From: Candidatus Cloacimonadota bacterium
GTDB lineage: Bacteria > Cloacimonadota > Cloacimonadia > JGIOTU-2
NCBI GenBank assembly: GCA_021158425.1
Contig: JAGGUR010000136.1
Coordinates: 1 to 13,053 of the forward strand
DNA length: 13,053 bases
Reading direction: 5' to 3'
In this document: in pieces, positions 2,229 through 7,936 of the stretch
Numbering within the stretch: position 1 is the first letter of the stretch
Layout of the letters: the number at the start of each line of letters is the position of its first letter
Made by a program: the position numbers and the translations under genes
Notes under the pieces: model-generated
The model's database searches: none
What the model saw: the letters and a program-made list of their open reading frames with translations, nothing else
Told to the model about the DNA's origin: nothing

Positions 2229-2303
2229 TGGAGCGGGAAACGGGACTCGAACCCGCGACAACTACCTTGGCAAGGTAGGGCTCTACCACTGAGCTATTCC
2301 CGC
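2229..2303 (-). tRNA. tRNA-Gly (anticodon GCC), overlapping the end of the upstream CDS
   Basis: 75 nt on the minus strand including CCA. The acceptor pairs GCGGGAA with TTCCCGC, followed by U73 and CCA. The anticodon arm is CTACC-TTGCCAA-GGTAG, giving GCC. The D arm contains AGCTCAGTGGTAGAGC and the T arm CGGGTTCGAGTCCCG. The first ten tRNA bases also encode the last codons and TAG stop of the AMMECR1-like gene, so the protein gene and tRNAs are almost certainly on one transcript. The order Gly(GCC)-Cys(GCA)-Leu(UAA) matches E. coli glyW-cysT-leuZ. Confidence 0.97.
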
Positions 2304-2929
2304 ACCGACTTATCAGAGTTAAATTTCTTTTGTATCGCCTTTATGTCAAGAATTTTCTCAACATCCTGCGAAAATATCTGAGCAGAAAACTTCTCTATGG
2401 TTGTGCCTTCTTCTTTCCACACATCAGGGTATAAACCTGCCTTCAAACAGGTATGCTTCAGAAAGGTTTCAACATCCCATCCTTCCTCTTCTGCAACCTG
2501 TGGCAACAGCAATCCCTGATAAAATCCCTTTCTAATAAGTAACCCATCTCTGCCAATTTTTATTTCAGAAATATCCTTTACTTTCTTCAGGGGTGTTAAT
2601 ACAGAAATTTCTATATTTAGATATTTAAATTCCTCTTTCTCTAAAGATGGAAACCTGGGGTCTTCAAATGCAGAAGCAATTGCCATTCTCTGAATAGTAT
2701 CTAAAAGTGGAGCGATTCCAACAATATATCCGATACAACCTCGTAATTGACCGTGCTTGTGTAGAGTAACAAAAGCCCCTCTTCTTTCTTGAAATATTCT
2801 GTCTTCAAAATTATATTTTGGCAATTTTTTGCCAGACAATTTTGCGTAAACGGTCTCTTTTACAACAGCAAGTAAAATCTGCTGCTGCCTATCATCTAAT
2901 CCTAAATCTATACTTGATTTTCTTGTCAT
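2294..2929 (-). CDS. AmmeMemoRadiSam system protein A (AMMECR1 domain)
   Basis: 211 residues. The start at 2929 has AAGGA 5 nt upstream. Family hallmarks are LRGCIGY (62-68), EDPRFP (89-94), NIEISVLTP (105-113), IGRDGLLI (125-132), GLLLPQVAEEEGW (139-151) and SAQIF (182-186). Proteins of this family occur with Memo (protein B) and a radical-SAM enzyme; the reaction of the set is not securely known. The core ends near SAQIF, and the last 25 residues (EKILDIKAIQKKF...) look like a non-conserved tail reading into tRNA-Gly, whose 5' end supplies the stop. The Memo gene lies upstream on the same strand across a 178-bp gap. RNase P cleavage of the tRNA would remove the stop codon from the message. 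Confidence 0.93.
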   Translation of the reverse strand: MTRKSSIDLGLDDRQQQILLAVVKETVYAKLSGKKLPKYNFEDRIFQERRGAFVTLHKHGQLRGCIGYIVGIAPLLDTIQRMAIASAFEDPRFPSLEKEEFKYLNIEISVLTPLKKVKDISEIKIGRDGLLIRKGFYQGLLLPQVAEEEGWDVETFLKHTCLKAGLYPDVWKEEGTTIEKFSAQIFSQDVEKILDIKAIQKKFNSDKSVRE

Positions 2930-2945
2930 CCTATTCCTTTATTGG

Positions 2946-2974
2946 ACGCAGAAAAACGCTGATAAAGCTGAATT
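2946..2974. repeat. Degenerate ACGC(A/T)GA microrepeats in the Memo-AMMECR1 gap
   Basis: ACGCAGAAAA, ACGCTGATAA and AGCTGAATT follow one another as imperfect 10-nt units. The word resembles the ACGCAGATAAACGC-type microrepeats common between genes in environmental genomes (from memory). No ORF is associated with them here. A weak minus-strand promoter may lie just upstream of the AMMECR1 gene (TTGATA, complement of 3006-3011; TAAATA, complement of 2984-2989; spacer 16). Confidence 0.3.
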
Positions 2975-3046
2975 CCACAGATTTATTTAGACTAAACGAA
3001 CTCTATATCAATTCTATTTCATTGTTATAATTTTTTCTTTGCGTTC

Positions 3047-3083
3047 TCCCGACTTAAGTCGGGATCCCGATTAAAATCGGGAT
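3047..3083. repeat. Double GC-rich palindrome between the Memo and AMMECR1 genes
   Basis: TCCCGACTTAAGTCGGGA (3047-3064) is a perfect 18-bp palindrome. It shares its last base with ATCCCGAT-TAAA-ATCGGGAT (3064-3083), a second hairpin with an 8-bp stem. The second has the same CCCGAT/ATCGGG core as the hairpins at 792-810 and 4119-4132. In the transcript it would fold just after the Memo stop codon. There is no clear T-run after it on the minus strand (GAGAACGCAAAG follows), so termination is doubtful; mRNA 3'-end protection is possible. Confidence 0.6.
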
Positions 3084-3107
3084 TAGTGCTCTTTATGTTT
3101 AATGTTC

Positions 3108-3932
3108 TTAATAAAAAATTGCTGAGAGATATCCAACAACCTGGGAGTAATCTCCAAATATCATTCCAGAATGACTGTAGTTTAGAATGTCAGCATTATT
3201 AATCCCAAACTTCTTTGCCAACAGAATTCCTGCCTCTACACACCCAAATCCACATGCCTCTGCCTTGCCTGAACGGATATATTTATCAAGTAGTCCTGCA
3301 TCCATCTTTTTTACAGCATCAATCACTTTATCATCCAACACTTTGGCAGTTTCCGCGTCGTGATAATGTGACAAATCTGTACTAATTACAAATAGAATTT
3401 TTTTATTTGAACCTTTGAAGGTTTGATAGAGAATCTCTGTCAAGTTCTCACTAATTTTTAGTGATTGATATCCAATAAGTATTGGCACTAATTTGAATTC
3501 AACCAGAACAGTTTGCAAAAACGGCAACTGAACTTCTAAAGAATGCTCACTTCTATGTGCCATTTCTGAATAGCCAATAACATCATTTTTCAACAATTCT
3601 TCTACGATTTCTTTATCAACCGGGATATTCCCTAAAGGTGTTTCATAAAAATCACAATCACAAACAGACACAGAAAATTCTATGGGATTGTGGGAAGGTG
3701 CTATTACGATTACAGTGTCAATGTGCTTTCCTTTCAAACATTTGTAGCCATAAGCAGCAGTTTGACCCGAAAAAACATAACCAGCATGTGGTGAAATTAT
3801 CGCAAAAACTTCTTCGTATTTCTTCTCTAATTTGACATTGTTAAAATAACTATCTATCTCCGTTTTTAGCTTATGCGGATTTGCTGTATAGAATTGACCT
3901 GCAACAACTGGCTTTCTAATTTTATGAATCAT
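3108..3932 (-). CDS. AmmeMemoRadiSam system protein B (MEMO1 family)
   Basis: 274 residues. The start is well fixed by GGAGGAGG 4 nt before the ATG. The N-terminus (RKPVVAGQFY) is the family signature. The metal-site residues of human MEMO1 all have counterparts: H49 in SPHAGY, H81 in APSHNP and C227 in ACGFG. STDLSHY (184-190) supplies D186 and H189. The C-terminus GDYSQVVGYLSAIFY is typical. The fold is related to extradiol dioxygenases; in bacteria and archaea the family occurs with AMMECR1 and a radical-SAM enzyme. AMMECR1 follows on the same strand; no radical-SAM gene is in the window. A weak promoter may precede it (TTGCCT, complement of 3973-3978; TATTAT, complement of 3952-3957), but the 15-bp spacer is short. 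Confidence 0.95.
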   Translation of the reverse strand: MIHKIRKPVVAGQFYTANPHKLKTEIDSYFNNVKLEKKYEEVFAIISPHAGYVFSGQTAAYGYKCLKGKHIDTVIVIAPSHNPIEFSVSVCDCDFYETPLGNIPVDKEIVEELLKNDVIGYSEMAHRSEHSLEVQLPFLQTVLVEFKLVPILIGYQSLKISENLTEILYQTFKGSNKKILFVISTDLSHYHDAETAKVLDDKVIDAVKKMDAGLLDKYIRSGKAEACGFGCVEAGILLAKKFGINNADILNYSHSGMIFGDYSQVVGYLSAIFY

Positions 3933-4019: not shown

Positions 4020-4184
4020 ACCTCAACCGCTAACTCCTTCTCCTGTCCCAGTGAAATATTCTTCGAATTTCACAGGACAAGCAAGGAGAAGGAGAATTTT
4101 GTCTTCCTCTCCGCCAGACCCGATTTATCGGGACTCCGTCTCGGAGCTGGCGGAGAGGATTGAGGTGAGGTTAAAAAAACCTCA
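4020..4184. repeat. Composite palindromic element with a cloverleaf-like module
   Basis: This fills most of the 307-bp gap 3933-4239, where I see no gene. Outer arms are ACCTCAA (4020-4026) and TTGAGGT (4160-4166). Module 1 pairs CTCCTTCTCCT (4034-4044) with AGGAGAAGGAG (4084-4094) around GTGAAAT/ATTTCAC (4051-4057/4067-4073). Module 2 has a perfect 12-bp stem, CCTCTCCGCCAG/CTGGCGGAGAGG (4106-4117/4147-4158), enclosing two hairpins: CCCGAT-TT-ATCGGG (4119-4132) and CTCCG-TCT-CGGAG (4134-4146). That is a three-way junction. A small hairpin TGAGGTT-AAAAA-AACCTCA (4166-4184) closes the region. It looks like a miniature transposable or extragenic palindromic element. It lies downstream of mrdA and upstream of the Memo gene. 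Confidence 0.7.
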
Positions 4185-4239: not shown

Positions 4240-6003
4240 TTAATATTTCAAAATAGGTTCTTTATTAAAATAACATGCCATAATCTTTCCTGCCAAAGAA
4301 GCTGCGGCATTGGCTCCGGAACCACCATTTTCAATAAAAACTACAACTGTTATTTCGGGATTCGGCAATGGTGCGATGCCAGCAAACCAAGCATGAGTAT
4401 CACCTTTATAATTTTCTGCTGAACCTGTTTTGCCGCCAACTCTAATCCCTTTGACACGAGCCTTGCCACCGGTTCGTCCTTTGGCATTAACAGCCTCATC
4501 CAATCCCAATATAAGAAATTCCAATACCTCTTGCCTGATTGGTAGATTAACTTTATTGTATTTAACCTTTTCTTTTTTGCCTTCAAAAAGATAATAATCA
4601 AGAAAATGAGGCTGAAGCAAAATTCCACCATTGGCAATAGCTGAATAAAATCGTGCGACAGAAAGAGGAGTTACTAAAACTTCTCCCTGTCCTATTGCTA
4701 AATTAAGAAGATTGCCTCGCGTCCAGCCAAATTTGCTATAATTTTCGTCATACCAGTATGAAGTGGGGAAAAATCCTTTCCGCTCACTTGCAAGGTCAAT
4801 TCCAGTCTTACAAGTTAGTTCGCAATCATCAACAAACTTTTTGAAATCATCAAGGTCTATCATTTCAGCTAATTTATAGAAATAAGTATCACACGATTCC
4901 CTGATTGCGTCAAGCATATTTACTGGTCCATGACCCTTTTCTTTCCAGCATCCAAAGAATCTCCCACCATACCACAAACCACCCTTGCAATCTACAAGAA
5001 TTTCATACGGATCCACAAGTTTCTTCTCAAGTACATAGGCAGCAACTACTAACTTAAAAATTGAGCCTGGTGGATATGTAGCATTACAGAGTTTATTAAT
5101 AAGAGGTTTATTCTTATCATTTACTATACTATTCCAATACTCATAATTCATACCGGAAACGAACATATTTTGATTATAATAAGGCGTGCTTGCTGAAGCA
5201 ATGATACCACCAGTCTTGCAGTCCATAACAACTGCTGCACTGGATAAATTTTCCGGGAGCAAATCAGTCACCTCTCTCTGCAAATCCATATCAATAGTAA
5301 GAACCAAATCTTTGCCAGCTGTGGACACTTGGGAAAGGTCTCCCTTTATTAATTCTAACGAATTTCCCGATGCATCAACTTGAACAATATCATATCCTTT
5401 TTTACCCTTTAATTCCTTTTCATAAAACTTTTCCAAACCCACTTTGCCAACATAATCAGTCTTATCATATCCATCTTCTTTCATAAGATTATATTCTTCT
5501 TTAGATATTTTACCAACATATCCTAAAAAATGATTATGATAAAGATAATTTCTTCTGCTTTCTGATTTTACTATAATTGATGGATAAAAATCAATATTTT
5601 CTTCAAACTTGATAGCAGTTGCCAACCCAATGTTTTCGTCAATCAGTATCGGAGCAAATTTCCTAAAACGATTTTGATAAATTATACTAAGCACCTTTTC
5701 TTTAGTTATGGATAAATTCTTGGCTAAAAAATCAGCTAACCTGTCCTTATCCTTTATTTTTTCAATATTTATGTAAACTGATAATGAAGGTACATTTTCT
5801 AAGCAGGGCTGGAGATTTCTATCATAAATAATACCTCGTTTAGAACTCTTTTTTATAATTCTGAAATAATTCTTTTCAGCAATTTCTTTATAATTTTTCC
5901 CTTCTATTACCTGAATCTTAAATAAAGAATAAAGAAGAATTACAAAAATGCCAATAACCAAACAAAAAATGTAATCCGCTTTTTTAAATGTTTTAAATAT
6001 CAT
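4240..6003 (-). CDS. mrdA: Penicillin-binding protein 2 (elongasome transpeptidase)
   Basis: 587 residues, usual for PBP2. PBP2 cross-links peptidoglycan of the sidewall during elongation, with RodA, MreC and MreD. One membrane anchor lies at about 11-28 and is followed by the dimerisation-domain motif RGIIYDRN (56-63). The three penicillin-binding motifs are present: SIFK (S314 nucleophile, K317), SCD (370-372, the SxD form usual in PBP2) and KTGS (525-528). GDTHAWFAGIAP follows KTG as expected. Its ATG overlaps the mreD stop as ATGA, which means translational coupling. It ends the operon; rodA does not follow. Confidence 0.96.
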   Translation of the reverse strand: MIFKTFKKADYIFCLVIGIFVILLYSLFKIQVIEGKNYKEIAEKNYFRIIKKSSKRGIIYDRNLQPCLENVPSLSVYINIEKIKDKDRLADFLAKNLSITKEKVLSIIYQNRFRKFAPILIDENIGLATAIKFEENIDFYPSIIVKSESRRNYLYHNHFLGYVGKISKEEYNLMKEDGYDKTDYVGKVGLEKFYEKELKGKKGYDIVQVDASGNSLELIKGDLSQVSTAGKDLVLTIDMDLQREVTDLLPENLSSAAVVMDCKTGGIIASASTPYYNQNMFVSGMNYEYWNSIVNDKNKPLINKLCNATYPPGSIFKLVVAAYVLEKKLVDPYEILVDCKGGLWYGGRFFGCWKEKGHGPVNMLDAIRESCDTYFYKLAEMIDLDDFKKFVDDCELTCKTGIDLASERKGFFPTSYWYDENYSKFGWTRGNLLNLAIGQGEVLVTPLSVARFYSAIANGGILLQPHFLDYYLFEGKKEKVKYNKVNLPIRQEVLEFLILGLDEAVNAKGRTGGKARVKGIRVGGKTGSAENYKGDTHAWFAGIAPLPNPEITVVVFIENGGSGANAAASLAGKIMACYFNKEPILKY

Positions 6004-6500
6004 TCTAAGCTTTTCATAGAAATCTTTAAATTATCAATAAAAAATAAAACGATTATGATAATGCAGGAATAAACTGTGTTGTATAATACAAGGCCAAAAA
6101 TTCTTAGAAAGGGCAAGACTTGGCCTACATTGAAAATCAGAAAAATCAAATCTTTCATAAAGAAATAAAACAAATTAACAATAAACAGGATTAATAACAA
6201 AAACACCTTTTGCTCTCCCCTGTTTAATCGGGGATTAATTTTTGATCTCATCTCACCTAATAAAAAAGCAATGAGAACAAATAATAAAGTTGATATTCCA
6301 AAAGTGGTAGGACTATTAATGTCTAATAGAGCGCCAAGAAAGAACCCAAGAATTAGACCTGTTATATTACCTCGTATCAAACTATAATATATCACAACAG
6401 GGAGCAAGAGATTTGGTACAGTGTTAAAAAATCCTAAGTTAGCAGAATAAAAATATTGGAAATAAACCATAAAGACAGAAATAATTATAAGTCTAATCAT
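6000..6500 (-). CDS. mreD: Rod shape-determining protein MreD
   Basis: 166 residues from the preferred ATG at 6500, which has GGGAG 7 nt upstream and overlaps the previous gene by 8 nt. The frame is open to an ATG at 6539, but that would add 13 residues lying inside the upstream gene. MreD is a polytopic inner-membrane protein linking MreC to the RodA-PBP2 synthase. The sequence shows the familiar pattern of five to six helices, with NLLLPVVIYYSLIRG, GFFLGALLDINSPTTFGIST (the most conserved stretch in MreD) and a C-terminal helix pair. The position between mreC and mrdA confirms the call. Confidence 0.9.
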   Translation of the reverse strand: MIRLIIISVFMVYFQYFYSANLGFFNTVPNLLLPVVIYYSLIRGNITGLILGFFLGALLDINSPTTFGISTLLFVLIAFLLGEMRSKINPRLNRGEQKVFLLLILFIVNLFYFFMKDLIFLIFNVGQVLPFLRIFGLVLYNTVYSCIIIIVLFFIDNLKISMKSLE

Positions 6501-7179
6501 TTGTTTTCTCCCGAACCAGGCAGATAGGGGTAAGTTCACTCTGCTGCCCCTGAGGATTATCCATCATAATTTTTTCTAATAATTCTGAATCTATTCCGGG
6601 AGATTTTCCAATCACCCAGGACCCTCCAATATTATTGATATCCATTATGGCTGTTTCATTTCCAGTAATTAATTTTATTCTATTACAGATTTCATCTGCA
6701 TGTAATGGACCTTTAATTACAGTCTTATCATAAGGCGGGACAGGTGATGTGTGTGCCGCATCAATAAGAGCTGCTTGCTTACCTGCGATTTTGTAGAAAA
6801 TTCCTCTCTTGCCAATAAATTTACACAAAAATCCAATAATCGCTGCAATAATTATTCTTAAACGCCCACACTCATCTATTGCACATTGCATACTTGTTTC
6901 TGACCGAAGCCCAACACCGTAGCTTGTCCTTTTCACTCCACGCCAAAGTAATCTCGCCAGTAAGCCAACCTTTATTTTGTCTTCCCTGATTGCTCTGCCT
7001 TGAGTAATAGCAACGGGACTTTCACTAAGAACAATTATATCGTTCTTTTTTCTAATCCCATTAGTATATTGTAAAACAATTTCAATAATATCATCATCAG
7101 AAGTGAGTATTTTTGTTTTTATTGGCTGTCGGAAAAAAACAATATCATCTATAATTTTTTTAGAAATATTATTTCTCAT
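6493..7179 (-). CDS. CofE-like protein (coenzyme F420-0:gamma-glutamyl ligase family)
   Basis: 228 residues. The family adds gamma-linked glutamate to F420-0 using GTP and divalent metal. Visible features are DIIVLSESPVAITQGRAI (47-64; QGR is typical), RLRIIIAAIIGFLCKFIGKRGIFYKIAG (106-133), AALIDAAHTSPVPPYDKTVIKGP (136-158), IMDINNIGGSWVIGKSPG (178-195) and DNPQGQQSELTPIC (207-220). The start overlaps the mreC stop by 11 nt and the stop overlaps mreD by 8 nt, so it is translated as part of the rod operon. No other F420 gene is visible. Such homologues occur in bacteria not known to make F420, so the acceptor may differ; a role in envelope building is inference from position only. No signal peptide is seen, but the hydrophobic stretch at 108-120 is notable. 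Confidence 0.75.
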   Translation of the reverse strand: MRNNISKKIIDDIVFFRQPIKTKILTSDDDIIEIVLQYTNGIRKKNDIIVLSESPVAITQGRAIREDKIKVGLLARLLWRGVKRTSYGVGLRSETSMQCAIDECGRLRIIIAAIIGFLCKFIGKRGIFYKIAGKQAALIDAAHTSPVPPYDKTVIKGPLHADEICNRIKLITGNETAIMDINNIGGSWVIGKSPGIDSELLEKIMMDNPQGQQSELTPICLVREKTND

Positions 7180-7936
7180 AGTCTAAGATAATTGCAACTT
7201 CTTCAACCTTTGCAAGATCTACAAATGGTTTTATTTCAGCTTTTTTAAAAAGTCCGCCACTTGTCTGCTCAATATTTATAATTTTACCAAAAGAAATCTC
7301 TGGAGGATAAATTGAGCTCAATTCTGAGGTAACTATCTCATCGTCCAATTTTACATCACAACCAACTTTTATCTTCTGTAAATAAATTCTCCCATCAAAA
7401 TTTGTTTCAACTATTCCATGAATTCTACTTCTGCTGTCCTGTGCACCCATACGGAAATACTTGCACCCGAATGTTTGAACTACTGAATAATCTGGATAAA
7501 CAGCTATAATTTTCCCTACCAACCCATCAATAGCAATGACTGGCAAATTAATTTCAACATTTTTATTTTTCCCTGCATCAATTATCAGAGTTTCATAATT
7601 AAGAAAAGAGCCTGTTCCTAAAACTCTTGAAACTTCTACTTGAAACTTCCTTTTATCCTGTATATCTAAAAGATTAGATAATCTCTCATTTCTTAAAATT
7701 TCCTCTTTGTAGTGTCTATTTTTAGATTGTAATAAAAACAGCTCAGCCTGTAAATCTTTATTCTTCTGGGAAAGTTTTGAAAGCCCTTTTAAATACGATA
7801 TACTTGCAGTAAATGGCAGGAAGAGATGTTTTCCGATAAACTGTGCTTTTGATATTCTATTCTCATTAGTGCCAGCTATAAAGATTATAGATATAATTAG
7901 GAATATTACAAAAATTACATTTTTTCTGCTAAACAT
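7169..7936 (-). CDS. mreC: Rod shape-determining protein MreC
   Basis: 255 residues, typical. MreC is a bitopic inner-membrane protein whose periplasmic beta domains activate PBP2. A membrane anchor lies at about 7-22 (VIFVIFLIISIIFIAG). A coiled-coil region follows at about 50-90 (LSQKNKDLQAELFLLQSKN), then the two beta domains with NLPVIAIDGLVGKI (130-143) and SELSSIYPPEISFGKI (204-219), both standard MreC motifs. It is the first gene of the operon mreC - CofE-like - mreD - mrdA. No mreB lies upstream; the next gene is divergent. The ribosome-binding site is poor (AGAAGA about 10 nt upstream). Confidence 0.95.
   Translation of the reverse strand: MFSRKNVIFVIFLIISIIFIAGTNENRISKAQFIGKHLFLPFTASISYLKGLSKLSQKNKDLQAELFLLQSKNRHYKEEILRNERLSNLLDIQDKRKFQVEVSRVLGTGSFLNYETLIIDAGKNKNVEINLPVIAIDGLVGKIIAVYPDYSVVQTFGCKYFRMGAQDSRSRIHGIVETNFDGRIYLQKIKVGCDVKLDDEIVTSELSSIYPPEISFGKIINIEQTSGGLFKKAEIKPFVDLAKVEEVAIILDYEK

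Follow-up and report, generated by a model that had tools for sequence, protein, structure and literature searches.

An extra gene in the mre operon

The locus described here raises the question of what a homologue of CofE, the coenzyme F420-0:L-glutamate ligase, does between the rod-shape genes mreC and mreD of a Cloacimonadota genome. The window, that is, the whole stretch of 13,053 nucleotides analysed, belongs to a genome that is 62% complete. On its minus strand lies an operon with the order mreC, X, mreD and mrdA, where X denotes the CofE-like gene. Its parts are as follows:

7169..7936, minus strand: mreC, the upstream neighbour of X (PF04085, 110.8 bits), with its stop codon at 7171-7169
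6493..7179, minus strand: X, encoding a CofE-like ligase homologue of 228 aa (PF01996, 30.8 bits; predicted CofE fold)
7179-7177 and 6495-6493, minus strand: ATG start codon and TAG stop codon of X
6000..6500 (to 6539 with a GTG start), minus strand: mreD, the downstream neighbour of X (PF04093 and TIGR03426 above cut-off)
4240..6003, minus strand: mrdA, encoding PBP2 (TIGR03423, 527.3 bits)

The domains of MreC, MreD and PBP2 and the F420_ligase domain of X all passed their Pfam cut-offs. A preliminary description had placed the ligase gene at 6493..7179, which agrees with our reading of the open reading frame, and had reported overlaps of 11 nt with mreC and 8 nt with mreD. The first overlap is borne out by the position of the mreC stop codon. 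The second holds if mreD starts at the ATG at 6500, but extends to 47 nt if the in-frame upstream GTG at 6539 is used. The genes mreD and mrdA overlap by 4 nt.

Downstream of mrdA and in the same direction, positions 2294-3932 (minus strand) encode a Memo-like and an AMMECR1 protein (AmmeMemoRadiSam B and A). The same pair follows mrdA in loci L023 and L024, with a memo-mrdA gap of 12 nt in the latter; no radical SAM partner was seen, by eye, among the open reading frames of the window. A tRNA-Gly gene (2229-2303, minus strand) overlaps the final 10 nt of the AMMECR1 gene and is followed by tRNA-Cys and tRNA-Leu. Within the 307 nt that separate mrdA from memo in the window lies a 19-nt inverted repeat (4105-4159; 89% complementary, 17-nt loop), which could be a small mobile element or a terminator-like one.

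Superfamily, active site and the two known activities

A profile search confirmed the F420_ligase family assignment made in the preliminary description, at 30.8 bits against a cut-off of 25 and over profile positions 2-71 of 218 only. The match recurs across the genomes of the family and the phylum and is, therefore, not ascribed to chance; at E 0.1, PF01996 matched all 48 members of alignment A2. The predicted structure of X has the CofE fold, at 14-17% identity to CofE (Archaeoglobus fulgidus, 2PHN and 7ULD). A PDB sequence search with the X protein and alignment A1 returned no CofE chain at E 10, and with A2 and one distant member it reached CofE only at E 0.22. The hhalign comparison of A1 with CofE gave a probability of only 63.7. 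A weak, short likeness to cytidine deaminase in the PDB sequence search (best E 0.059) was set aside, the fold result being given preference. Membership of X, which has at least 1,732 homologues, in the F420-ligase superfamily is supported.

Five residues of X (D47, R62, D140, D180 and N182) are invariant in the 48 chosen rows of A2, which include loci without mre genes nearby. Three of them have the following codons:

6994..6996, minus strand: Arg62, in QGRA, placed by hhalign on the Arg of the CofE motif SKxEGR; 48/48 in A2
6760..6762, minus strand: Asp140, the proposed counterpart of CofE D109, paired by hand; 48/48 in A2
6640..6642, minus strand: Asp180, of D180-x-N182, aligned with CofE D150-x-N152 in both hhalign runs; 48/48 in A2

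We take D109 and D150 of CofE to be metal ligands. The alignment of these residues with archaeal CofE, suggested in the preliminary description, held in part: D180-x-N182 falls on D150-x-N152, whereas hhalign is gapped around D140 and pairs D109 with Q135 instead. Placed by hand on the sequence, D140 probably answers to D109.

The numbering of the A. fulgidus CofE sequence agrees with the structural account (F92, G153-C155 and R234), where the contacts to F420 are ascribed to an R234 tail and a domain-swapped hairpin over the site (PMC10861534). The structural match of X to CofE stops at CofE residue 222, short of that tail. About 28 residues around the CofE segment DWRGTKDLFGR, which we infer to be the hairpin, are gapped in X according to hhalign. 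Given these missing parts, X would have lost F420 binding. Its residues 104-122 are hydrophobic (19-residue mean of 1.85) and mostly helical in the predicted model; they sit roughly at the position of CofE F92, where the alignment is uncertain, and may serve as a membrane contact or, equally well, as protein core.

Genomic searches for CofD and CofC agreed with the earlier remark that no F420 genes are in view. CofD matched none of the 124 Cloacimonadota genomes, the 62%-complete window genome among them, and 6 of the 14 genomes in a control set that included three archaea, three of these matches being over cut-off. CofC gave no match in the window genome at its 62% completeness and marginal matches in 8 of the 17 genomes of the family (three over cut-off, best 24.6 bits). 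As the Escherichia coli, Synechococcus and Lactococcus controls match too, we read the weak matches as other nucleotidyltransferases. Against the CofE equivalog PRK13293, X scored 12.5 bits where the cut-off is 274, and no TIGR01916 match was listed for it at E 1. Together with the missing F420-contact parts and the absence of cofD, these scores led us to reject X as an F420 ligase proper. Superfamily and fold would agree with a true CofE whose host acquires F420-0 or a related deazaflavin from its neighbours, but the same three lines of evidence make that explanation highly improbable. F420 gene clusters have been reported from Red Sea brine in eight MAGs of different phyla, among which the portion of the study available does not name Cloacimonetes (PMC5108811). 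Some database records call X-type proteins 'coenzyme F420-0:L-glutamate ligase', a name that suggests F420 in a phylum where no cofD was found.

The second known activity of the superfamily concerns folate. Chlamydia CT611 (FolC2), a member of COG1478, can stand in for FolC in an E. coli folC mutant (PMC1971073), so that X might likewise extend folate polyglutamates, working beside FolC. At E up to 1, the corresponding model TIGR04132 matched 23 of the 48 members of A2 (best 3.1e-5), but not X itself. FolC was over cut-off in 12 of the 17 family genomes, including the same-genus G013, and in 9 of the 10 genomes of ten selected loci (nine without mre neighbours plus L034); the window genome, at 62% completeness, yielded none. 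On account of this coexistence in relatives, which leaves no gap for X to fill, we reject X as a FolC replacement. No folate gene was recognised, by eye, among the neighbours of X in the inspected loci. We, thus, consider a folate tail ligase of the CT611 kind unlikely, though a better candidate than a true CofE.

Distribution and gene neighbourhood

Within the uncultured bacterial phylum Cloacimonadota, X was matched in 13 of the 17 genomes of the family, including 9/9 good ones, and in 96 of the 124 genomes of the phylum; among the 70 good genomes of the phylum it was present in 60 and missing from 10. The named loci are the best 80 of 117 confirmed. Among these best 80, the exact order mreC-X-mreD-mrdA was found in 63, mreC or mreD was present at 71, and neither was detected beside X in the remaining 9. 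The survey of relatives proposed at the outset, therefore, finds X between the two genes in most of the phylum. As far as the searches reached, none of the outcomes named in the preliminary description as refuting was observed. X overlaps mreC in 61 of 69 named loci, and MreC is matched no more than about 1 kb away from it in 90 of 96 genomes, as judged by comparing two match lists by eye. The six exceptions comprise three genomes of one genus with X located away from mre (G044, G048 and G049), one with the operon broken between mreC and X (G076), one with X at a contig edge and no MreC match (G094) and one with a partial X and no MreC match (G103). MreB- and RodA-like proteins, recognised by eye, flank mreC, mreD and mrdA in the operons of other Cloacimonadota genomes.

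The inspected operons that lack X are otherwise intact: mreD and mrdA come after mreC in all nine Cloacimonadota genomes examined, out of 11 without X whose mreC exceeded the cut-off (G087 and G121 were left out). The copies with mre context in a tree of 74 rows (20 from the 71 named mre loci, plus L231) formed one clade with 99/99 support, which also held the three relocated copies. The simplest reading is a single entry of X into the mre operon, with later departure or loss possible.

Several loci deserve separate mention. L231 (G076, contig C435) has X-mreD-mrdA without mreC, which is found on another contig; just before its X comes a protein of 94 aa that appears by eye to be of the S4 RNA-binding type and has no NCBIfam match at 1e-5. 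In L236 (G014), mreC and X lie about 0.9 kb apart, and no gene was recognised in between. L034 is labelled Armatimonadetes, which looks doubtful, as it has the Cloacimonadota arrangement and branches within that clade.

Counting fragment matches, X also occurred in the phylum to which L100 belongs (labelled TA06), in 57 of 147 genomes, and in that of L035 (labelled Sumerlaeota), in 26 of 40. MreC was matched in 125 of the 147 TA06-labelled genomes, and 13 of the 57 that bear X had no MreC match (completeness not given; one of the 13 has X as a fragment), indicating that the occurrence of X is not tied to the Rod system as such. Four of the 13 have the arrangement murJ-scpB-X-rluB (G131, G133, G139 and G140); in these, X may act in wall synthesis independently of the Rod system, or the genomes may be incomplete. 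L099 and L098 are labelled Cloacimonadota and Proteobacteria, yet their genomes (G132 and G131) fall in the TA06-labelled phylum, and the labels look doubtful.

Neither mreC nor mreD was detected beside X in 50 short loci of the TA06- and Sumerlaeota-labelled phyla; murJ was detected in 15 of these, all TA06-labelled, and in 0 of 20 labelled Sumerlaeota. A second neighbour set comprised 50 loci from 48 distinct genomes (two pairs share a genome), drawn from 28 of the 57 TA06 and 12 of the 26 Sumerlaeota genomes, chosen by hand, together with nine of the named loci and L130. In 12 of these 50 loci, murJ lay within two genes of X: adjacent on the opposite strand in five, as murJ-scpB-X-rluB in three, after X in three of a distant clade, with acpS next, and after X in one Phycisphaerae record. 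The identity of MurJ was confirmed by TIGR01695 in 4/4 tested, and that of PBP1A in a single locus from a three-member clade. In 35 of the 50 loci, neither murJ nor PBP1A lay within two genes of X. Further neighbours were mostly unrelated and included glycosyltransferases, ribosomal proteins and ABC transporters (by eye), as well as a pseudouridine synthase and ScpB identified by profile models.

On the 74-row tree, the murJ label required five changes, at least three of them forced. Three or four independent hits in 12 to 20 lineages correspond to a P of 2e-8 to 9e-6, which becomes 4e-5 to 0.02 once 2000 possible partner genes are taken into account. These values assume four slots among 2000 genes and estimated lineage numbers, and would be weakened by an old inherited neighbourhood. 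A binomial estimate for 12 of 50 loci (P 5e-22) was set aside, as the loci are related and not independent. The recurring murJ neighbourhood moderately favours an envelope role for X.

Possible roles of X

The intact X-less operons speak against X as an obligate partner of mreC and mreD, and a restriction to MreC-bearing genomes is contradicted by the 13 of 57 TA06-labelled genomes mentioned above; on these findings together, we reject X as a fixed part of the Rod complex. It could still be a catalytically dead CofE fold acting as a structural or regulatory partner of MreC and MreD, as its location and overlaps in the operon would allow, but the core acidic and arginine residues are invariant even where no mre gene is near, and X lies elsewhere in three genomes, so that we give this explanation very little credence. 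The main rival to a wall-linked ligase is that X is a general small-molecule ligase with no wall link, inserted once and kept by operon structure. The single clade of mre-context copies with its three relocated members, the mostly unrelated neighbours in other phyla, the departure from mre in one genus and the occurrence without MreC would all suit such a passenger. The persistence of X beside mreC in 90 of 96 genomes and its overlap with mreC in most named loci argue against it, as does the recurrence of murJ next to X in several arrangements, for which chance would give about 4 in 2000 per lineage (a rough figure assuming independence and 2000 genes). We regard the passenger explanation as a serious but less probable alternative.

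Our preferred reading, to which we assign a probability of about 0.5, is that X represents a third branch of the CofE/FolC2 superfamily: a GTP- and metal-dependent amino-acid ligase with an acceptor other than F420-0 and, probably, a link to the wall. In CofE, GTP activates a carboxylate, an amine attacks and an amide forms (PMC10861534). By homology, X would use GTP and a divalent metal to turn the carboxylate of its acceptor, which would not be F420-0, into an acyl phosphate and would couple this to L-glutamate, or a similar amino acid, through the amine of the latter. An ancestor of most Cloacimonadota would have acquired X in its operon, between mreC and mreD, and the gene would mostly have stayed there. 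The acceptor would probably be supplied along with wall synthesis, for example as a soluble or lipid-linked wall precursor. The neighbourhood alone, with MreC, MreD and PBP2 beside X in one phylum and MurJ in others, hints at such an envelope acceptor. A more specific proposal is speculative and rather improbable: X would be a hitherto unrecognised wall-modifying enzyme of several little-known phyla, a cytoplasmic GTP-dependent ligase attaching glutamate, or some other amino acid, to a carboxylate of a peptidoglycan precursor or of its lipid carrier shortly before MurJ flipping and use by the wall synthases. If the acceptor is a wall precursor, X would constitute a new step in peptidoglycan synthesis; otherwise, it would still probably add a function to the two known for the superfamily. 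With its core conserved and its acceptor site changed, X poses a testable substrate question.

Compared with CofE, X shares the superfamily, the fold and the D-x-N metal-ligand region, but differs in its low identity, in the gap at the DWRGTKDLFGR region, in having no C-terminal tail with R234 and in occurring in a phylum without a cofD match. With FolC2/CT611 (TIGR04132) it has in common the superfamily COG1478/PF01996 and the occurrence in bacteria without F420 genes, whereas it coexists with FolC in relatives, has no recognised folate gene nearby and does not match TIGR04132. The N-terminal domain of FbiB is a CofE homologue (PMC10861534), and the NCBIfam model PRK13294 matched 10 of the 48 members of A2 (best 4.5e-5); at 228 aa, X is too short for the second FbiB domain. 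The preliminary description knew of no published account of this arrangement, and among search listings of the openly accessible literature we likewise recognised no description of this gene between mreC and mreD. As in the mre/mrd operon of rod-shaped bacteria, mreC, mreD and mrdA follow one another in the usual order; what sets this operon apart is an additional gene for an enzyme, placed after mreC and before mreD.
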